From a virus: a DNA stretch of 26,784 bases. This document shows, one piece after another, positions 1,740-17,130 of the stretch (positions within the stretch are counted from its first letter, which is position 1; each line of letters starts with the position of its first letter). The stretch spans positions 1-26,784 of the IMG/VR virus record IMGVR_UViG_3300008050_000256. One strand, written 5' to 3'. The notes beneath the pieces were generated by a model. That model saw nothing but the letters and a program-made list of their open reading frames with translations. It was not told where the DNA came from and searched no databases. A program made the position numbers and the translations under genes.

Positions 1740-1925
1740 ATGCAAGAACTACTCACCGTCACCGAAGTAGCAGATGTGCTTAAAGTGACAAAATACACAA
1801 TTAGGGAATACATAAAGGCTGGGAAGATAAAAGCGTCTAAGATTGGCGGAAAAGAATACAGAATCGCTAAGGGCGACCTAGAGAAATTTATTTCTGACTT
1901 GGAATATACACCCCATATTAATTAA
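1740..1925 (+). CDS. excisionase/MerR-type HTH DNA-binding protein (HTH_17)
   Basis: 61 aa. ATG at 1740 follows AAGGATA and is preferred over an in-frame start at 1686 that overlaps the promoter. The sequence LLTVTEVADVLKVTKYTIREYIKAGKIKASKIGGKEYRI matches the HTH_17 excisionase family winged helix (helix-turn-helix about residues 6-26, wing KIGGKEYRI), followed by a short helix (DLEKFISDL). Such proteins bind DNA as excisionases or small regulators. With no integrase in view, a transcriptional regulator of the early operon, where it is the first gene, is the safer reading. Its stop codon lies inside the following hairpin. Confidence 0.8.
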   Translation: MQELLTVTEVADVLKVTKYTIREYIKAGKIKASKIGGKEYRIAKGDLEKFISDLEYTPHIN

Positions 1926-1961
1926 TTATTCTGAACGTTAAGTGAAGAATAATTAATTAAT
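1917..1961 (+). promoter_or_regulatory. intercistronic hairpin H1 (GA/GA-loop family)
   Basis: ATTAATTAATTATTCT (1917-1932) pairs perfectly over 16 bases with AGAATAATTAATTAAT (1946-1961). The 13-nt loop GAACGTTAAGTGA can fold as GA / AC / GTTAA / GT / GA: a tandem G-A internal loop, two pairs and a small loop. The stop codon of the HTH gene (1923-1925) lies in the left arm. The next gene's ribosome site (AAAGGG) begins just after the right arm. The same plan recurs in the leftward operon at 8172, 8664 and 11337. Confidence 0.7.
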
Positions 1962-1974
1962 AAAAGGGTTTATA

Positions 1975-2187
1975 ATGGAAAAAGAGACATCAACGGCTCG
2001 GCAGTTCTGCGCTAACTATGTTTGCGGTAAGTGTACGGGTGTTATGATGGTTAAAGAAAGCGCTACTTTGCGACTTTGGGTGGATTCAAATTATGCTGGC
2101 AAGGATTGTAAGCCGTTGGATTGTACTTATTTTAATAATATTGTAATCCCGGGAACGCCGAAGGAGGCATCATGGACGAGAAGATAA
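1975..2187 (+). CDS. small cysteine-rich protein, possible zinc binder
   Basis: 70 aa; ATG after AAAAGGG. Cysteines at 12, 17, 20, 45 and 50 (FCANYVCGKC ... CKPLDC) suggest a metal site formed by CxxxxCxxC and CxxxxC. It ends in a basic tail and overlaps the next gene by 16 bases, so the two are probably translated together. It is the first gene after hairpin H1. I do not recognise the family; a DNA-metabolism or host-takeover accessory is possible from context only. Confidence 0.65.
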   Translation: MEKETSTARQFCANYVCGKCTGVMMVKESATLRLWVDSNYAGKDCKPLDCTYFNNIVIPGTPKEASWTRR

Positions 2188-2883: not shown

Positions 2884-3740
2884 AGGAATTAATAAGCATT
2901 CAAGCAGAATTAAGTGTACCTAAGAATCAGCGTAATAACTTTGGTAATTATAATTATAGGAGTTGCGAAGATATATTGGAAGCCGTTAAGCCGTTGTTGA
3001 AAAAGAATAATTGTGTGCTAACATTATCAGATGAAGTTAAAATAGTTGGCGAAATTATTTATGTCGAAGCTACGGCGACTATTAAGGCGAAAGAAAACGA
3101 ATTATCTGTTACCGCGCAGGCTGGGATAGACCCAAACAGGAAGGGGATGGATGTGGCTCAAAGTTTCGGTTCAAGTTCAAGCTATGCTCGTAAATATGCG
3201 CTTAACGGACTCTTCTCGATTGACGATACTGCGGATTCTGATGCTACTAATGAGCATAACACAAAGGAAAAAGCGCCTAAGTCAGACGAACCTTTAAAGT
3301 GGGATAATTCAGTGCGTACTCGCAAGCTAGGTTTCGGTAAGCATAAAGACCTTACATGGGAAAAAGCCCCAAGCGATTATTTGGAATGGGTGATGAATCA
3401 AGACGGAAAATATAGTGAGTTAGCACGTAAGGAATTAACGCTTAGAGTTGAAAAGAGAGACGAACAGGATGATAAGGACGCTCAAAGGATTAATACAATT
3501 ACTATTACGATGAAATCCCTTATGGGGAGAGTTGGGACAACGAAAGGGCTTGCGTGGATTAACGAAAGGATTGGTAAGCGTAAGGTCGCTGAGTTAGAAG
3601 TTGAACAGCGCGAGAAATTGTTTACGGAATTTTCTGATTGGGTCGAAGCAGAAACATCTAATAAAGCAGAAACATCTAATAAAGCAGAGACATCTAATAA
3701 AGCAGAGACATCTAATAAAACAGATAAGTTGCCGTTCTGA
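2880..3740 (+). CDS. erf: ERF-family single-strand annealing protein with DUF3820-like domain
   Basis: 286 aa. Residues 1-120 match ERF recombinases: LISIQAEL...NNFGNYNYRSCEDILEAVKPLL, later AQSFGSSSSYARKYALNGLF (about 93-112), the conserved S-Y-A-R-K-Y-A-L segment. ERF proteins anneal complementary single strands during phage recombination and genome circularisation. Residues about 148-172 (LGFGKHKDLTWEKAPSDYLE) match the DUF3820-type FGKHKG...W..P..YL motif seen in exonucleases. The C-terminus has four AETSNK repeats (257-280) and ends KTDKLPF, like the acidic-hydrophobic tail (D-x-I/L-P-F) by which SSB proteins recruit partners. ERF assignment is secure; the tail function is inference. Confidence 0.88.
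   Translation: MKELISIQAELSVPKNQRNNFGNYNYRSCEDILEAVKPLLKKNNCVLTLSDEVKIVGEIIYVEATATIKAKENELSVTAQAGIDPNRKGMDVAQSFGSSSSYARKYALNGLFSIDDTADSDATNEHNTKEKAPKSDEPLKWDNSVRTRKLGFGKHKDLTWEKAPSDYLEWVMNQDGKYSELARKELTLRVEKRDEQDDKDAQRINTITITMKSLMGRVGTTKGLAWINERIGKRKVAELEVEQREKLFTEFSDWVEAETSNKAETSNKAETSNKAETSNKTDKLPF
3648..3719 (+). repeat. four 18-bp in-frame tandem repeats
   Basis: Units 3648-3665, 3666-3683, 3684-3701 and 3702-3719 encode AETSNK four times at the end of the ERF protein. Units 1-2 and 3-4 differ by one silent base (GAAACA versus GAGACA). A unit of six codons can expand or contract without a frameshift. Confidence 0.95.
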
Positions 3741-6255: not shown

Positions 6256-6596
6256 TTAAAGAACAGCGAGACCATTTAGGGGCTCATTTAAAAAATACGG
6301 TTAGCAAAATATACCAAATAACAGACGGCATTTTAACCTTAACGAAGTTAGCACAAGCTAAGAAGATTGGTAAAGGGACGGCGTTCAAGCAGATAGCGAA
6401 GCTTACTAATGAGCTTAAGTATTTTACTGATGTCCCAGCTAGTATATCATATCAATTTTCGCCTTTTGACGTTATGGATGATGCGGAAAAATGGGAAAAA
6501 GAGAAGGCTAAGAGCAAGTTTATATTGACAAAAGAGAACGCGGACAAAGAAATATATCCAACTATTGACGATATTAAGGATATAGGGTTAAATTAA
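6252..6596 (+). CDS. hypothetical protein, 114 aa
   Basis: ATG overlaps the DUF1367 stop (ATGA); AGGAGG lies 13-14 bases upstream. The N-terminal half looks helical (YQITDGILTLTKLAQAKKIG, KGTAFKQIAKLTNELKYF), possibly DNA-binding by its lysines. The C-terminal half is charged. Its stop codon lies inside a 35-bp tandem duplication that copies the last residues and the stop. It is the last gene of the early operon. No family recognised. Confidence 0.6.
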   Translation: MIKEQRDHLGAHLKNTVSKIYQITDGILTLTKLAQAKKIGKGTAFKQIAKLTNELKYFTDVPASISYQFSPFDVMDDAEKWEKEKAKSKFILTKENADKEIYPTIDDIKDIGLN

Positions 6597-6632
6597 TTAT
6601 TGACGATATTAAGGATATAGGGTTAAATTAAT
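6563..6632 (+). repeat. 35-bp perfect tandem duplication over a stop codon
   Basis: Copies 6563-6597 and 6598-6632 are identical and both contain the last codons and TAA of the 114-aa gene. The unit is not a multiple of three. The second copy lies after the stop and ahead of the terminator. Confidence 0.95.
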
Positions 6633-7467: not shown

Positions 7468-7683
7468 TTAAGCTTCCGCTTGACCTTCTAATTCGAGAAT
7501 CGCTCTTGCAATCGTTCCAGCTAATGCTAGGTCGAATGCTACACCTTTTTTAGTAGGGACGAAGTCATCGTTGTTCTTGGTTTTAATCCAAATGCGCACT
7601 TGTCCGAATGTTCGCTCATTTACGGTGTCTTTTGTAACGAGAATTTTGCTAGATTCGGTTAGTTTGATTTCTTTGATTGTCAT
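7468..7683 (-). CDS. PC4-like single-stranded DNA-binding protein
   Basis: 71 aa; AAAAGGAAATACAC precedes the ATG. The sequence KEIKLTESSKILVTKDTVNE, RTFGQVRIWIKTKNND and DFVPTKKGVAFDLALAGTIA matches the PC4/p15 fold: beta strands with an R-x-W strand, the PTKKG turn, then a C-terminal dimer helix (ALAGTIARAILELE). Family knowledge: PC4 proteins, including bacterial and phage ones, bind single-stranded DNA as dimers and assist transcription or replication. A phage role in replication or host transcription is inferred. Confidence 0.7.
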   Translation of the reverse strand: MTIKEIKLTESSKILVTKDTVNERTFGQVRIWIKTKNNDDFVPTKKGVAFDLALAGTIARAILELEGQAEA

Positions 7684-7709: not shown

Positions 7710-8153
7710 TTATGCCTTAGCAGGCGGTTGTGTCATCATTGTCTCGAATAACTCTTTTAGTTCGTCGGGAACGGCATTGTCAGATTTACCTATCGACACG
7801 CTAAGTCTTACTCCTTCGGCGCGCTCTTCTCCGTCGATAATAATTTCATCGTCCATATTAATTGCGCCACATCCCCTAGCAAAGCTACTGCCGTTAAATT
7901 GCGCTCCGACAAAAGCATCATCAAGTAATTCAAGTAACGGATATATGTCTTTATTAATCCTGTCAATTATTACCGAGACTAGCAACACTTTATCTTTTTT
8001 GCTCATATCAGAGTTTATGCAAGCACTTTCTACTGCGCTTAATATAATCGAGTTTGAGTACACTAATACTCGTTCTACTAGCGCTTTCGACTCTGCGTTT
8101 TCTCCGAGCAATTCATCTTTTATGTTGGCTAATTCAATTCGTTTGTCAGTCAT
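7710..8153 (-). CDS. hypothetical protein, 147 aa
   Basis: ATG 8153 after AAAGGAGTCCGCC; first gene after hairpin H2. The N-terminal 80 residues are helical (ELANIKDELLGENAESKALV, VLLVSVIIDRINKDIYPLLE). The second half is acidic with possible strands (DDEIIIDGEERAEGVRLSVS), ending in a proline-rich tail. It stands 26 bases before the PC4-like gene, so the two are probably co-expressed. No family recognised. Confidence 0.65.
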   Translation of the reverse strand: MTDKRIELANIKDELLGENAESKALVERVLVYSNSIILSAVESACINSDMSKKDKVLLVSVIIDRINKDIYPLLELLDDAFVGAQFNGSSFARGCGAINMDDEIIIDGEERAEGVRLSVSIGKSDNAVPDELKELFETMMTQPPAKA

Positions 8154-8171
8154 GGCGGACTCCTTTATTTA

Positions 8172-8216
8172 TTAATATATTATTACTTTCACTATGTTTC
8201 AGTAATAATATATTAA
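8172..8216 (-). promoter_or_regulatory. intercistronic hairpin H2 (GA/GA-loop family)
   Basis: A 16-bp perfect stem (TTAATATATTATTACT, 8172-8187, with its complement at 8201-8216) closes a 13-nt loop. On the minus strand the loop reads GAA / AC / ATA / GT / GAA: a GAA/GAA internal loop, two pairs and a triloop. The stop codon of the upstream gene (8213-8215) lies in the stem, and the downstream AAAGGAG follows closely. Stem sequence differs from H1, H3 and H4 while the apical plan is kept. Confidence 0.7.
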
Positions 8217-8473
8217 AAGAGTTCCCCAACAAGCGATTTAAGTTCTAATTGTTTGTCTGTATGTTCTACTTCAACCCAACCATCCTTAGTTTCGACCGCT
8301 ACTATATCATGGGCATAGATAGAGCCTGTTTCGTCGAATAAGCCCACTTCAGACCCTTTTGTGAATATCATGCGGGTATTTCCTCGCATGTTATCCATCA
8401 TAATACCTGTTACGGGCGCTCCTAATTGTACGCTTTTAATTCGCATACCTTTTTTTATGTCGTTTGTTTTCAT
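8213..8473 (-). CDS. small beta-rich hypothetical protein, 86 aa
   Basis: ATG 8473; the ribosome site GAAAGGGAAATAACC overlaps the end of the 55-aa gene. The pattern KGMRIKSVQLGAPVTGIMMD, TRMIFTKGSEVGLFDETG and VAVETKDGWVEVEH suggests a small beta barrel (SH3- or KOW-like), followed by a helical tail (DKQLELKSLVGELF). Its TAA lies in hairpin H2. No family recognised. Confidence 0.65.
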   Translation of the reverse strand: MKTNDIKKGMRIKSVQLGAPVTGIMMDNMRGNTRMIFTKGSEVGLFDETGSIYAHDIVAVETKDGWVEVEHTDKQLELKSLVGELF

Positions 8474-8475
8474 GG

Positions 8476-8643
8476 TTATTTCCCTTTCAGTTTTAGCTCT
8501 ACGTGTATGACCTTTCCTTCAATCTTAACACCGAAGGTGTTAGCATGCTCTCTAATCTCTTGGTCTGTTAAGCTAGACGCGTAATTCAAGTTATCCGAGT
8601 ATACTAACTCACGAAGTTCTTTGTCGCTCATCCGCTTGGTCAT
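8476..8643 (-). CDS. hypothetical protein, 55 aa
   Basis: Minus-strand ATG at 8643 follows AAAGGAGTCGGCA directly downstream of hairpin H3. The product is MTKRMSDKELRELVYSDNLN, then SLTDQEIREHANTFGVKIEG and KVIHVELKLKGK: two short helices followed by two strands. TAA at 8476-8478 lies two bases before the next ATG. The leader GGAGTC(G/C)G(C) is the same as before the 147-aa gene, where H2 stands at the same place. Confidence 0.65.
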   Translation of the reverse strand: MTKRMSDKELRELVYSDNLNYASSLTDQEIREHANTFGVKIEGKVIHVELKLKGK

Positions 8644-8663
8644 TGCCGACTCCTTTGTTTTAT

Positions 8664-8707
8664 TTAATTATTTATTCTTTCACTAACGTTTCAGAATAAA
8701 TAATTAA
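8664..8707 (-). promoter_or_regulatory. intercistronic hairpin H3 (GA/GA-loop family)
   Basis: A 15-bp perfect stem (TTAATTATTTATTCT, 8664-8678, with its complement at 8693-8707) closes a 14-nt loop. On the minus strand the loop reads GAA / AC / GTTA / GT / GAA. The stop codon of the upstream 80-aa gene (8704-8706) lies in the stem, and AAAGGAGTC follows the other arm. Confidence 0.7.
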
Positions 8708-8946
8708 TGTCCGTGATTAAATCCGTAATAATATTCCTTGCCGTCACTAAGGAATGGTACAAGTATGTAGTCCACAAAACCGCAACAACCCTGTTCTTTG
8801 CTTACTTCGTATGCTTGTTCGCTCTCGCGATTTCCTTTTTCGGCTATACGAATATTATCCACACAATCATAGTAGTCGCCACCATGAGCTACCCCTAGCA
8901 CATAATCTTTAATATCCGAAGGGATATTAGTATGCTGTTTTTTCAT
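8704..8946 (-). CDS. hypothetical protein, 80 aa
   Basis: ATG 8946 after ATAAGGAGATAAA. The N-terminal part (SDIKDYVLGVAHGGDYYDCV) is helical. The centre has a Cys pair (EQGCCGFVDYI), and the C-terminus is aromatic (GKEYYYGFNHGH). No known motif. It directly follows the frameshifted DUF3846-like gene and ends in hairpin H3. Confidence 0.6.
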   Translation of the reverse strand: MKKQHTNIPSDIKDYVLGVAHGGDYYDCVDNIRIAEKGNRESEQAYEVSKEQGCCGFVDYILVPFLSDGKEYYYGFNHGH

Positions 8947-8947
8947 T

Positions 8948-9213
8948 TTATCTCCTTATCATTCTAGCACCATCTTTTAAGATGATGACGTTACCCACAA
9001 TTTTTCTCGCATGTTCGCCAAAGTTAGCGCGCCATATTTCAGACGCGCTTTTATTTATAGGCAAACCTTTAAGGCGACCATCTTCATCCATTACCATATT
9101 TGTTTTATCTTTTTATCTTTTAGTAAAAAGATAACTTCTAGATACCCACCTATATATTCGCGCATTTGCTCGAAAGTCATTTCGTTGTTGGTTAATGTTA
9201 TTATCTCATCCAT
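8948..9213 (-). pseudogene. DUF3846-like gene, frameshifted by an 8-bp tandem duplication
   Basis: Two frames on the minus strand. 9213-9091 encodes 40 aa ending MREYIGGYLEVIFLLKDKK, then IKQIW. 9097-8948 encodes 49 aa (MVMDEDGRLKGLPINKSASE, then IWRANFG, IVGNVIILKDGARM). Joined, they resemble DUF3846 proteins: 'YVGGYIEV...NEDGKL.GLP.N..A......IVG.VVI'. The break lies at TATCTTTT repeated twice (9106-9121, plus strand). Removing one copy restores one frame reading FLLKDKTNMVMDEDGRLKGL. It is therefore a disrupted gene, a phase-variable gene or a programmed frameshift. DUF3846 function is unknown; members are common in phage early regions. Confidence 0.7.
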
Positions 9214-10085
9214 ATTGGTTTCTCCGCTAAATCTTGCATCATTTGTGCTAGTCCATCGACCGCCTGTTTGTCATCTTTGACAAATTTCTGTTCGACCACA
9301 TGAAGCAGGTTAAGTTCTTTTTTATACACGTCCGTTACTTGGCGTTGATAACCCAAGCCATCATAAAATCCGTATTTTTTACTCATCAGACCAAAGCATT
9401 TGTCTCTAAAGAGACCTGGGAGTCCCGACGTTAGCATTCTGTGAATATCCAATGGCTCATTAGCCATTTTCATTGGGATGCTCATTCCAAAGTATTTCCA
9501 ATCTTCACTGCCTTTATATTCGACGAAGTTAAATACGATTATTTCGACGGCATAACCAAGTTTATTGATTATGTCTCCCATGAGCGTAATTGTAGCACCT
9601 AAGCGGATAAAATCTCTTTCGGTGTGTCCGTTCGCAACTCCAATATTCATTCCAATTCGGACGTTAGCACGCTGGGATTCTCTATTAGTCGTCGTCCAAT
9701 ATTGGGAGCTTCCACCCATTAGTCTCGACATACTAAGGTCATCTCCGTCATCACGCACCACTCTTTTTCTCTTACATGAGAGTCCGCGACCTAGAAATTT
9801 AGAGATTCCAGCTTTTCGTTCTAACATAGCACGTTGTTTATGGTATTGCTCATAAACTTTTCTCGTTGTTTGCCCCATTTTTAGGGCACGTTCTAAGTTC
9901 TCGCGTCCCACAACTTCCTGTCCATAAGTCCATTTTTCTCGCGATTTATTATCTTCGCCACCTATATCTTCCCAATGATACTCTCCAGCGTCTATGCAGG
10001 AGAGCATTTCATTCATATCGGTAAAATGGATAACGGCAGTATTGTCTTCAATCACCTTCGGTGTTAAGATATTTTCGTGATTCAT
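9201..10085 (-). CDS. VWA-like partner of the MoxR/CobS ATPase
   Basis: 294 aa; ATG 10085 overlaps the ATPase stop (ATGA), with AAAAAGGAG upstream. The core VRIGMNIGVANGHTERDFIR, LGATITLMGDIINKLGYAVE and IIVFNFVEYKG (about residues 142-193) has the alternation of a von Willebrand A-type Rossmann fold, but a full MIDAS DxSxS is not visible. Family knowledge: phages often carry a CobS/MoxR-type AAA+ ATPase next to a CobT/VWA-like protein; despite the cobalamin names, many such pairs are remodelling systems of unknown target. The tight overlap supports a two-part complex. The VWA call is by pattern only. Confidence 0.6.
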   Translation of the reverse strand: MNHENILTPKVIEDNTAVIHFTDMNEMLSCIDAGEYHWEDIGGEDNKSREKWTYGQEVVGRENLERALKMGQTTRKVYEQYHKQRAMLERKAGISKFLGRGLSCKRKRVVRDDGDDLSMSRLMGGSSQYWTTTNRESQRANVRIGMNIGVANGHTERDFIRLGATITLMGDIINKLGYAVEIIVFNFVEYKGSEDWKYFGMSIPMKMANEPLDIHRMLTSGLPGLFRDKCFGLMSKKYGFYDGLGYQRQVTDVYKKELNLLHVVEQKFVKDDKQAVDGLAQMMQDLAEKPIWMR

Positions 10086-11302
10086 TTGTAACTCCTTTTT
10101 AGTTCATCGACGGCAACTTTATCCTTTTCCATGTCCGTCCAATTAAGTGTTATCATGTCAAGTAACCAATCATTACTTTTTCCGACTTTACGCCATCTTT
10201 GTCCGTCGAGAAAGAGTCTAGTGCTGATGGTTCGTTTAACTGCGTTAGCATTCGTTCTACTGCGTAAGTCCCATAGCATATTCGCGGTTTCTATAAAATC
10301 GCCGACCAAAGCACGTTCTATGTTTTTATCATAGTCGATATAAACTTTCACGGCTTGCAGTCTGTCTAGCGTAGCTAGGTCAAGCTGACCACGACCAGCA
10401 TAGTCGAAGTCGTTTCCGTCTCCCCATGTGTTCGTAGCTACGGCTACATTAAAACCGTCGTCTTTTAGCACCATAGGGTTGTTTTTGTCATTCGGTGTCG
10501 ATAAAATGCCCTGCCCATCAAACACGCTATTGAATACAAGACCACAATTCGCGTCGAAACCGTCAAATTCGTCCAAAAACAGGAAGTTTCCTTCGCGAAA
10601 AGGCTTGGACACCAATCCGTCAATAAAAGTGCCGTCAAACGTCATTCTCCCTGTTAAATGGGCTTCCGTCACTCCAGCAGAACCTTTAACGTAATGGTAA
10701 GTACCGTCAGTCTTATCAAATCCTAGCGCTTTTGCTGATTGCTCTACTAGGTGCGATTTTCCTGTGCCACTTGGGCCACATAACCACACACGACCGAAAT
10801 TTTTTAAGCATTCGACCACGGTGGGGAAAGCTTCGTGAGTCAATCCACCAGTTTCAGACACTTTAACGTCGTTAATGTGTACTTCGATTGGACGTTGTAA
10901 GGATGAAATTTTTACATCGACCTTACGAAGTAAATCGTCCTTAACTTCGGTTATTTCGGAAGTTAGCATGGATTGAGTTTCCGAGACTGCATTACTTATG
11001 GTCTCGTTCACGCTATCACCTATATTACCCATAACGGCGCTAACTAGCATGTCAGTTAGTCCGTCGGATTTTGGTGTAACTTTGATTGTTGGTTTCGGTG
11101 TCTCTTTGATTGTTGGTTTCGGTGTCTCCTTCGGAGTGTTGTCACGCTTAGGGATAATTCCGTCAAGCATGTATTTTATTTTTTCGGATTTGCTAGCAAA
11201 TTGAACCCACGAAGTGAGTTTGCCATTCTGTTTGCATTTTGCTATGCAAAGCTTCCGAAGTTTTTTGGTGTTCATGTTATTCAGTTCGTAATATTCATAC
11301 AT
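10082..11302 (-). CDS. MoxR/CobS-type AAA+ ATPase
   Basis: 406 aa; ATG 11302 after CAGGAGAAAAAACACC. Residues 1-50 form a basic helical N-terminal domain (MNTKKLRKLCIAKCKQNGKL). Residues 51-78 are a linker with two ETPKPTIK repeats, and a helical region follows. The AAA+ core has Walker A CGPSGTGKSH (175-184), Walker B FLFLDEFDGFD (240-250), sensor 1 VAVATNTWG (near 291) and a likely Arg finger in TLDRLQ (314). This is the MoxR/AAA_5 type, which uses ATP to remodel protein partners. The VWA-like gene follows at once. The hairpin H4 leader suggests post-transcriptional control. Confidence 0.85.
   Translation of the reverse strand: MYEYYELNNMNTKKLRKLCIAKCKQNGKLTSWVQFASKSEKIKYMLDGIIPKRDNTPKETPKPTIKETPKPTIKVTPKSDGLTDMLVSAVMGNIGDSVNETISNAVSETQSMLTSEITEVKDDLLRKVDVKISSLQRPIEVHINDVKVSETGGLTHEAFPTVVECLKNFGRVWLCGPSGTGKSHLVEQSAKALGFDKTDGTYHYVKGSAGVTEAHLTGRMTFDGTFIDGLVSKPFREGNFLFLDEFDGFDANCGLVFNSVFDGQGILSTPNDKNNPMVLKDDGFNVAVATNTWGDGNDFDYAGRGQLDLATLDRLQAVKVYIDYDKNIERALVGDFIETANMLWDLRSRTNANAVKRTISTRLFLDGQRWRKVGKSNDWLLDMITLNWTDMEKDKVAVDELKRSYK
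11081..11128 (-). repeat. two 24-bp tandem repeats in the ATPase linker
   Basis: Perfect copies 11081-11104 and 11105-11128 (plus-strand TTTGATTGTTGGTTTCGGTG followed by TCTC). They encode two eight-residue ETPKPTIK-type units in the proline-rich linker between the N-terminal domain and the AAA+ core. The unit keeps the frame. Confidence 0.95.
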
Positions 11303-11336
11303 GGTGTTTTTTCTCCTGCCGATTTCGGCTGTTAGT

Positions 11337-11381
11337 GTTAGTATATAGCACCTTCAGTTCCTTCAGGTGCTATATACTAAC
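11337..11381 (-). promoter_or_regulatory. intercistronic hairpin H4 (GA/GA-loop family)
   Basis: A 17-bp perfect stem (11337-11353 with 11365-11381) closes an 11-nt loop. On the minus strand the loop reads GA / AG / GAA / CT / GA: tandem G-A internal loop, two pairs, GAA triloop. It lies between the 93-aa gene and the AAA+ ATPase. A second small hairpin, GCCG/CGGC, stands directly before the ATPase GGAG. The two pairs here are AG-CU where H1-H3 have AC-GU, so the pairing rather than the sequence is kept. Confidence 0.7.
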
Positions 11382-11940: not shown

Positions 11941-11962
11941 GGTGTTTGCTCCCTTGTTTTAA

Positions 11963-11997
11963 TTATTAGCACCTTCATTACTTTACGGTGCTAATAA
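11963..11997 (-). promoter_or_regulatory. intercistronic hairpin H5 (divergent relative of H1-H4)
   Basis: An 11-bp perfect stem (TTATTAGCACC, 11963-11973, with GGTGCTAATAA, 11987-11997) closes a 13-nt loop, on the minus strand GTAAAGTAATGAA. The lower stem shares TAGCACC with H4. The loop has the same length as H2 but keeps only part of the GAA/GAA plan. It stands 20-odd bases before the start of the 33-aa gene. Confidence 0.5.
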
Positions 11998-12017
11998 GTT
12001 AAACGGTCTGTCTCATC

Positions 12018-13087: not shown

Positions 13088-13277
13088 GGTGTATTGTCGA
13101 CGCTATACCGAAGGACTCACAACGAGAAAAGATAAATGATTGCACGCATGCTAATTTGGGCTTCTACGCGTAGGAACGTGATTTGCGCACTCAACGGGAT
13201 TTGGGAACGCGAAACGCGTGAAGGGTGGGGTATCCCTACGTAAAGTACACCTCATCCATTTTACGGACAATTTTCAA
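13088..13277. other. intergenic stretch with short palindromes
   Basis: No convincing gene on either strand. It holds a perfect 10-bp palindrome CTACGCGTAG (13164-13173), a CGCG-AAA-CGCG dyad near 13213 and a partial copy of the ATACCGAAGG motif near 13112. These may be regulator-binding sites beside the iterons. Confidence 0.4.
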
Positions 13278-15481: not shown

Positions 15482-17112
15482 CTCAAAAAGAAAAAAATCA
15501 AATGATGAGAGCCATGTATTTGGACATCTTCACGTTTGCTGAAGTCTTGTTTGGCGACCCTGATAACTCTATGCACTATCATGTTCGCAATAAATCACCA
15601 GATTTTCATAGAGAAATAGCAAAAACGCTTATTTCCATGAATGCTGGGGAAAAATTGGCGGTTGTAGCACCTAGAGACCACGCTAAATCGACCTTTATTA
15701 ACCTAATTTACCCATTGCATCGCATTTTATTCGGGGAAGAACGCTTTTTATTGCTTATCTCTGAATCTGAAATGCAATCTAAGTACAATTTAGAAGCCAT
15801 TGGGAATGAAATTGAGTATAATCCTAAATTAAAGTATTTTTTTGGGGATAGACGACATACGTCTTGGGGGAAAGAAGAAAAAGAGATTATCGGCAGGTTT
15901 AATCCAGACGGAACACCTGCAGTTGTATGTAAATGCCTTATTCGGGGGACAGGGCAGAAGGTTCGTGGGCTTAAATATGGCGCTTACAGACCAACATTAA
16001 CGATTATCGACGATGGAGAAGGTGAATCTAATAGTGCTACCCCTATGGCAAGAGATAAATTCCGAAGATGGCTTAATGGTGCTGTAATCCCAGGAAGCGG
16101 AGATGCTAAACTGGTCTTTATTGGGACTATTGTAGATAGCGAAGCTTATTTGAATAGAATTGCTGGGCCAATGGCTTATAATAAAAAAGGCGAATACAAG
16201 GTAAAGGGTTGGAAATCTTTATTTTACCAAGCAATACCGCAAAATACACCAAAAGGTAAATTTGTAACAACTGGAGCTGAATATCTAGATAAAGACGGCA
16301 ATATTCAAGTCTTATGGCCAGACAGAAGACCGTATAAATGGCTCACAGATGAGAGAGAACGCCTTAAATCTGAAGGCGATATAGCTTATTTTTACCAAGA
16401 ATACCAAAATATCCCTGTTGATGACTCTTTTAGAGTCTTTAAAGAAAAAGATATGATGTTCTGGGAAGGAAGATTTATGAGAGAAGAAGGTCAATCTTAT
16501 ATTTTAAGAACTACCGACGGGACTAGAGAGAAAATACCAGTAAATACCTTTATTGGGGTTGACCCAGCATCTTCAGAGAACGTAAAAGCAGATTATACCG
16601 TAATTATGGTTGTTGCAGTCGATAAAGAGTTTAATATTTACGTTGTTGACTACTTTAGGGGACAAGTAGCACCAATGGACGGTGCTGACAAGATTTTTGA
16701 GCTAGCAGACCAATATTTCCCTAGAGATATTAAAATTGAAGAAACAGGACATGTCATGCTAGCAGATTATATCCTAAGAACATCAAAAGAGACAGGGCGT
16801 TTTTATAATATTAATACTCGGAAAGCAATTAAAGCTAAATATTACAGAATTAAACAAATGCAACCATACTTTGCGTCTAAATCTATCTTTTTAAAAGAAG
16901 AGCACGACGAACTATTACATGAACTTTTAAACTTTAGAGAACATGGAACATTCAAAAAAGATACTCTGGACGCTCTTAGGTGGGCAATAGACGATGTATG
17001 GAAACCAGATGTAGAGAAAAACGAGAAAGGTCAGTGGTTAGCACCAGAACCAACAGCAATCGTTGACTGGGAAACAGGACAAACATTCAGCGCTAGTGAG
17101 TATTTTGCATAA
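15478..17112 (+). CDS. terL: terminase large subunit
   Basis: 544 aa from TTG 15478, which overlaps the previous TGA; ATG 15502 is an alternative. ATPase: Walker A-like APRDHAKST (about 64-72), Walker B LTIIDDGEG (about 174-182). The C-terminal RNase H-like nuclease begins with TFIGVDPASSENVKADYTVI (about 356-375), with its first catalytic Asp in GVDPA, and continues with IKIEETG and LDALRWAIDDVW. This is the motor that pumps DNA into the prohead through the portal and cuts the concatemer. Full length. Its stop codon is repeated by an 18-bp tandem duplication. Confidence 0.93.
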   Translation: MTQKEKNQMMRAMYLDIFTFAEVLFGDPDNSMHYHVRNKSPDFHREIAKTLISMNAGEKLAVVAPRDHAKSTFINLIYPLHRILFGEERFLLLISESEMQSKYNLEAIGNEIEYNPKLKYFFGDRRHTSWGKEEKEIIGRFNPDGTPAVVCKCLIRGTGQKVRGLKYGAYRPTLTIIDDGEGESNSATPMARDKFRRWLNGAVIPGSGDAKLVFIGTIVDSEAYLNRIAGPMAYNKKGEYKVKGWKSLFYQAIPQNTPKGKFVTTGAEYLDKDGNIQVLWPDRRPYKWLTDERERLKSEGDIAYFYQEYQNIPVDDSFRVFKEKDMMFWEGRFMREEGQSYILRTTDGTREKIPVNTFIGVDPASSENVKADYTVIMVVAVDKEFNIYVVDYFRGQVAPMDGADKIFELADQYFPRDIKIEETGHVMLADYILRTSKETGRFYNINTRKAIKAKYYRIKQMQPYFASKSIFLKEEHDELLHELLNFREHGTFKKDTLDALRWAIDDVWKPDVEKNEKGQWLAPEPTAIVDWETGQTFSASEYFA

Positions 17113-17130
17113 AGTGAGTATTTTGCATAA
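17095..17130 (+). repeat. 18-bp tandem duplication over the terL stop codon
   Basis: AGTGAGTATTTTGCATAA occurs at 17095-17112 and 17113-17130. Each copy encodes SEYFA plus stop in the same frame, so readthrough of the first stop would add one more SEYFA unit before stopping. Confidence 0.95.

Follow-up and report, generated by a model that had tools for sequence, protein, structure and literature searches.

Early operons of phages are built from exchangeable gene cassettes, which raises the question of how the expression of a cassette is maintained when its neighbours change. Among named elements the closest analogue of the hairpins described here is ESAS of cluster K mycobacteriophages, imperfect 17-bp inverted repeats with short spacers that lie upstream of non-structural genes, are conserved with the gene family and are of unknown function (PMC3203893). 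These similar mycobacteriophage repeats have been without explanation since 2011.

We have analysed a family of intercistronic hairpins in the IMG/VR virus record IMGVR_UViG_3300008050_000256, the complete 26,784-base stretch of which is referred to here as the window, and in its relatives. Inverted repeats of ~17 bp with a short spacer upstream of non-structural start codons, the arrangement by which ESAS are recognised, are observed here, and the likeness extends to the variability of the spacer, the presence of many copies per genome, the intergenic location and the restriction to non-structural genes. ESAS are, however, imperfect, follow one consensus per genome and occur with a 13-bp SAS at the start codon, whereas the hairpins described here are near-perfect, include the stop codon of the upstream gene, carry a conserved apex and have site-specific stems, those of the junctions termed sites A, B and C differing within one genome so that no single repeat consensus exists. 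SAS is also absent, as GGGATAGGAGCCC matched the window twice at 3 mismatches against 2.63 matches expected by chance, neither match being at a hairpin. The hairpins are thus not ESAS, though they may work alike.

Hairpins that mask a ribosome-binding site (RBS) and thereby couple translation are known from the coat-lysis junction of RNA phages and from f1 VII-IX; a negative correlation has been reported between coupling and structure that immediately follows the stop codon, and structure over the downstream RBS supports coupling via unfolding (PMC12548453). Site A resembles these hairpins in the pairing of the downstream RBS with the final part of the preceding gene and in a structure that includes the stop codon of that gene, and differs from them in that the mask lies under a separate, conserved 17-bp hairpin, which is also found by itself at other junctions.

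In T7 early mRNA, RNase III sites are found between genes of the early operon, several per genome, as irregular stems with internal loops that are not known for a conserved apex. Location between early genes and the number of copies per genome are shared with the hairpins described here, whereas the irregular, internally looped stem is particular to T7 and the conserved apex to our hairpins. The boxB hairpin of lambda consists of a 5-bp stem and a 5-nt loop with boxA adjoining. Similarity to boxB and the nut site resides in a small sense-strand hairpin in early operons, a U-A closing pair and a sheared G-A in the loop, as well as in the position of site A after the first regulatory gene; our hairpins differ in having 17 bp, an apex of 9-14 nt and, on a reading of the sequences by eye, apparently no conserved boxA. 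CUUUAA-like strings beside site A differ between genomes and derive from Leu-stop codons. Rfam 15 returned no matches above the gathering threshold in the whole window, and a permissive Rfam search of 8100-8800 returned one sub-threshold snoRNA match only. The hairpin is of interest as a sequence-defined element that stands exactly at cassette boundaries, with strict covariation and in two forms, the next RBS being either hidden or free, properties that open decoupling, coupling or RNA processing to direct tests with reporters.

Results

Four perfect hairpins are present in the window. H1 (1916-1962, plus strand) has a 17-bp stem and the loop GA-AC-GUUAA-GU-GA, and lies at site A between an HTH gene and a gene encoding a 70-aa protein. 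On the minus strand, H2 (8172-8216; site C) has a 16-bp stem and the loop GAA-AC-AUA-GU-GAA, H3 (8664-8707), a module-boundary hairpin of D-like type, a 15-bp stem and the loop GAA-AC-GUUA-GU-GAA, and H4 (11337-11381; site B), upstream of the CobS-like ATPase gene, a 17-bp stem and the loop GA-AG-GAA-CU-GA. All four stems are 100% complementary, as described in an earlier note made from the sequence alone, with 11-14 nt separating the two arms; perfect stems of at least 15 bp with loops of 3-20 nt were observed four times in the window against a mean of 0.0 in 30 dinucleotide shuffles, none of which contained one. H5 (11956-12004, minus strand), upstream of a small ORF, has an imperfect 18-position stem that is 89% complementary and the loop GUAAAGUAAUGAA. 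When H1-H4 are folded as RNA, energies range from -13.8 to -26 kcal/mol (z-scores -6.5 to -8.9), and two apical pairs, AC-GU or, in H4, AG-CU, are present above a GA/GA (H1, H4) or GAA/GAA (H2, H3) internal loop in the structure of lowest energy. A covariance model constructed from other phages only finds H3 (49.4 bits), H2 (48.7 bits), H5 (11958-12003, 41.9 bits) and H1 (38.6 bits) in the window and misses H4, whose orthologous position is present in relatives. H5, described in the earlier note as a weaker relative, is more than that, with a score of 41.9 bits from a model built outside the window. Intrinsic terminators, raised as an alternative in the same note, are disfavoured, as H1-H5 are absent from the terminator scan and their stems are followed by A-rich leaders with a Shine-Dalgarno (SD) sequence and no U tract.

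The gene upstream of H1 (fam12; 1740-1925, plus strand) encodes a small HTH_17 protein of the excisionase/MerR-like type (PF12728, 2.6e-15), and its stop codon lies inside the 5' arm of the hairpin. Downstream, fam7 (1975-2187, plus strand), defined by gene-family comparison, encodes a Cys-rich protein of 70 aa, ~68 aa across relatives, with no Pfam match. H2 precedes fam4 (7710-8153, minus strand), a conserved ~150-aa gene detected in 24 of the 31 contigs analysed. H4 precedes fam0 (10082-11302, minus strand), the CobS-like AAA ATPase (phrog_249, 2.5e-35), which forms a module with fam1 as its second gene (9201-10085, minus strand; DUF7192, PF23822); in relatives a hairpin, designated site D, comes after fam1. 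An Erf-like annealing protein, large terminase, portal and major head protein are also encoded in the window. Genes were called by a simple procedure, and some of the starts or stops may be misplaced.

Scans with the ATPase, terminase and fam7 proteins recovered relatives, and a hairpin family orthologous to H1-H4 is present in about 30 related IMG/VR phages with a TerL 80-85% identical to that of the window, the terminase identity being 80-85% in the first 14 records checked. A census, consisting of an unbiased search for perfect hairpins in whole records followed by extension of imperfect ones, yields 61 distinct elements at gene ends. All clade genomes checked carry hairpins, contrary to the outcome that the earlier note had said would count against the elements, namely no further instances in related phages. 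Beyond this group, no such hairpins were found in the sister phages G024, G028 and G030 (TerL 61-66%), a single hairpin at the fam12 end was found in G023 (TerL 70%), two Manatee Spring phages have no hairpins with stems of at least 10 bp, and the hairpin is absent from the fam7 genes of more distant phages. The window has no near relative among 50,697 phage records, and isolate phages gave no nucleotide match and only distant protein matches, at most about 28% for TerL and none for fam7, so that no cultured host is available. From IMG sample numbers we read the group, all genomes of which are metagenomic, as mainly marine. A 7.3-kb contig binned as Candidatus Marinimicrobia UBA7303 (L173, DKQR01000160.1) encodes a terminase 65% identical to that of the window and hints weakly at the hosts that the wider group may infect; Marinimicrobia was rejected as a named host, this single contig with 65% TerL identity being too weak for the purpose.

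Gene families constructed by all-against-all comparison place the hairpins at orthologous junctions on the sense strand of non-structural operons: site A between fam12 and fam7 (H1, a junction that is the same in 24 distinct clade sequences), site B before fam0 (H4), site C before fam4 (H2), site D after fam1, with H3 at a D-like boundary, and a small number of additional junctions near fam11, fam85 and other genes. Sites B and C keep the same downstream gene, and the hairpin persists there even as the gene upstream varies from genome to genome; at site D the constant gene is the upstream one. The hairpin is thus shown to remain part of its module where the adjoining gene has been exchanged. 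Cargo genes between sites D and C (fam31, fam37, fam49 and others) have a hairpin on either side, and in G013 and G018, in which cargo is absent, there is one hairpin, a pattern that recombination between direct repeats would be expected to leave when cargo is gained or lost. Near-identical hairpin copies flank the fam1-fam4 cargo in the early leftward operon of G013, G014, G021, G022 and G010.

In 45 of 60 cases the upstream stop codon has its end between -4 and +12, counted from the first position of the 17-bp stem (median +5), and in four it lies 19 nt into the hairpin; annotated stops more than 10 nt upstream of the hairpin occur in about 11 of 60, some of which may reflect missed small genes. 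The next start codon follows the hairpin by 2-80 nt (median 17 nt). No hairpins were found in the head-tail operon, covariance-model matches being confined to early-operon pieces in seven long clade records; the location between early-operon genes proposed for the window alone is thus retained in the relatives. At the site B junction an A/C-rich linker (CAACCAACAA-like; 11303-11336 in the window) extends from the hairpin to the ATPase start in many relatives, and a second small hairpin, GCCGAAAUCGGC, directly before the Shine-Dalgarno is usual there in relatives.

Stems are mostly 17-18 bp across about 60 distinct hairpins (mode 17, total length peaking at 46-47 nt), the perfect helix being only 10-14 bp in some, and stem sequence is conserved per site. 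A gapless alignment of 18 sequences of 46 nt was used to examine covariation. Both sides had changed in 15 of 19 pairs, three pairs were invariant, and no one-sided change to G-U was observed in the 17 stem pairs. Paired cells amounted to 96.5% compared with 71.6% in shuffles, and the covariation score was 0.655, the shuffled value being 0.212 and no slid value exceeding 0.124. Counted over all elements, Watson-Crick pairs make up 994 of 1011 (98%) and G-U pairs 3 of 1011. The hairpins are thus shown to be sense-strand RNA structures maintained by paired changes, which strongly supports the earlier suggestion of functional RNA hairpins with covarying stems.

The apex is conserved to a lesser degree. 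Loops end in GA in 54 of 61 distinct hairpins on the sense strand and in none on the antisense strand, the top stem pair is U-A in 57 of 62, and the 3' UGA is highly conserved. GA/GA is the commonest apex, occurring in 30 of about 80 hairpins with stems of at least 10 bp in non-redundant genomes, with AC-GU, GC-GU, AU-AU and AG-CU as variants of the apical pairs, and identical loops can occur at different sites of one genome (G013, G014). In a sub-lineage loops are U-rich (G001, G018, G015 and G010), GA/GA being lost or only the 3' UGA being left. A GA/GA plan with upper pairs that change together, as noted from the window, is therefore real and recurs in a second lineage (see below); its constancy does not extend to the whole family.

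Site A differs from the other junctions in the structure that surrounds the hairpin. In the window the mask is modest, ACCC at 1910-1913 (plus strand) in the 3' end of the upstream gene forming a basal helix with GGGU at 1966-1969 and partly covering AAGGGU (1964-1969, plus strand), the SD region of the 70-aa gene, for which the probability of being unpaired is 0.50. When orthologous sequences are folded with their flanks, the last codons of fam12 pair with the SD of fam7, often together with the start codon, through pairings such as GCA/UGC, ACU/AGU, GCU/AGC, GCUACC/GGUAGC and GUUAC/GUAAC, G-U pairs being allowed in this flank helix. In a flank-swap test of 24 orthologous site A sequences, in which a constant hairpin took the place of the native one, the mean was -8.3 kcal/mol for own flanks and -5.4 kcal/mol for swapped flanks, with none of 20,000 permutations as good (p = 5e-5); relatedness makes swapped flanks more alike and therefore works against this difference. 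No such effect was observed at the five other site classes (B-F), site C included. These results show that at site A the base of the hairpin extends into a helix joining the end of the HTH gene with the SD and start of the next gene, and that the flanks have coevolved. Pairing of the downstream RBS to the end of the gene before it, maintained by coevolution as in an RBS-masking hairpin, is thus a property of site A and not of B-F. The SD has a mean probability of being unpaired of 0.25 at site A, compared with 0.64 at the remaining hairpin sites and 0.56 for other genes. The single-sequence fold of H2 also masks the next SD, a masking that is not conserved in relatives. Two general roles were considered and rejected: RBS masking, because only site A has flank coevolution, and keeping the SD unpaired at non-A sites, because in silico removal of the hairpin leaves SD accessibility unchanged.

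A search with an exact pattern for the C/D stem identified two further phages of 40 kb, G035 and G036 (43-44% GC), whose resemblance to the window group is limited to a tail-fibre-like domain and a remote match (23%) of the portal. Each contains three hairpins, located before a Shine-Dalgarno and ATG on the sense strand and all with the GA/GA apex, at L297:9231-9261, 10256-10289 and 13201-13235 in G036 and at matching places in G035. One of the three is GTTTATTAACTT-GAATTAATGA, another ATAATTATTACT-GAATGTAATGA, with GAATTAATGA in G035, and the remaining one AGTACCT-GAAGAATGA, which in G035 is AGTACCT-GAGGAACGA, so that the pair above the GA/GA loop is changed from A-U to G-C. GA/GA thus caps 6 of 6 hairpins of that size in the two genomes, which are related to each other and so represent three sites, not six. 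As background for the apex, a 16-base pattern search of viral loci gave, among the matches listed, 80 loci covering 720 kb, in which GA/GA hairpins with stems of at least 9 bp occurred 4 times, ~0.2 per 40 kb, a value taken as the background rate.

Discussion

We tentatively propose, with confidence that falls somewhat below an even chance, that the hairpins are cis-acting mRNA elements which may provide translational punctuation between early-operon modules, a reading derived from comparison of sequences. Stable hairpins located at the stop codon would, at most junctions, block downstream reinitiation by post-termination ribosomes, leaving the next gene to rely on its own free Shine-Dalgarno. 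The hairpin of site A would close the RBS, and translation of the next gene would require that a ribosome finishing the HTH gene first melts the base, a version that would couple fam7 to fam12 by unfolding. Both proposals are in keeping with the published relations between RNA structure and coupling cited above. For the tandem GA apex the preferred reading is a stable cap that folds quickly, possibly in contact with a protein as well. A translation insulator appears to fit the geometry of H2-H5 best, and a translational-coupling version that of H1. As SD accessibility at non-A sites does not change when the hairpin is removed in silico, insulation there must act on ribosomes and not on local folding. 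Further observations count against punctuation: the stop codon is inside the stem, so that part of the hairpin would be opened by the very ribosome that terminates there; it lies as far as 19 nt into the hairpin in four cases, and more than 10 nt upstream in about 11 of 60 as annotated; and the near-absence of G-U pairs is not explained by a simple stability role.

The main rival would account for the strict Watson-Crick stems better than punctuation does. Host RNase III or another double-strand-specific nuclease may cut the stems and generate module mRNAs with hairpin-protected ends, as happens in T7 early RNA, cleavage that at site A would free the RBS as well; near-strict Watson-Crick pairing, the nearly constant stem length (mode 17) and the location between early-operon genes are all consistent with such processing, and 17 bp together with two sheared GA pairs and two apical pairs would amount to about 21 stacked pairs. 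RNase III does not, however, require the conserved sense-strand apex, and the perfect helix of just 10-14 bp in some stems also argues against it; we regard intercistronic processing as possible but on the whole unlikely. Alternatively, a phage or host RNA-binding protein may recognise tandem GA and regulate translation or transcription elongation in the manner of an operator or nut site, as suggested by the prevalence of GA/GA, including 6/6 in G035/G036, the highly conserved 3' UGA and U-A closing pair, and the loops shared between sites of G013 and G014. Several genomes nevertheless keep the stems and lose the apex, a candidate protein was not found and, from our reading of the sequences, the adjoining boxA-like sequence is not conserved; we consider such recognition distinctly less probable.

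An effect on mRNA stability, in which 3' hairpins would shield the upstream cistron from 3'-5' exonucleases after cleavage or downstream Rho termination, agrees with the start of the hairpin at the upstream stop codon, where stabilisers of this kind are usually found. It seems improbable in that at B and C the hairpin follows the downstream gene while the upstream gene changes, and site A specifically engages the downstream RBS. Finally, the RNA hairpin could be a by-product of a DNA-level palindrome, whether the operator of a dimeric protein, a recombination site or a palindromic mobile element, a view that would account for the near-lack of G-U pairs, the per-site conservation of stem sequence and the near-identical direct copies that flank cargo genes. 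We give it very little credence, because the asymmetric loop is strictly sense-oriented in operons of both directions and because the flanks at site A coevolve with the RBS and allow G-U. A broader and rather speculative reading, which we think unlikely, is that the tandem-GA-capped hairpin is a portable mark with one trans-acting reader, such as a host ribonuclease, ribosomal or RNA-binding protein, that would isolate exchangeable cassettes in unrelated marine phages including G035/G036.

Additional features of the window

Several other features were observed in the window. A 71-aa protein encoded at 7468-7683 (minus strand) gives a weak match to PC4 (p15 coactivator, ssDNA-binding), just under the Pfam cutoff, and is conserved beside fam4 in 13 contigs. 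About four tandem 18-base units (AGCAGARACATCTAATAA) are present at 3652-3722 in the C-terminal part of the Erf-like annealing protein. A tandem copy of the last ~20-35 bases of a gene, including the stop codon, follows both a 114-aa gene (6564-6631) and the terminase gene (17097-17130).
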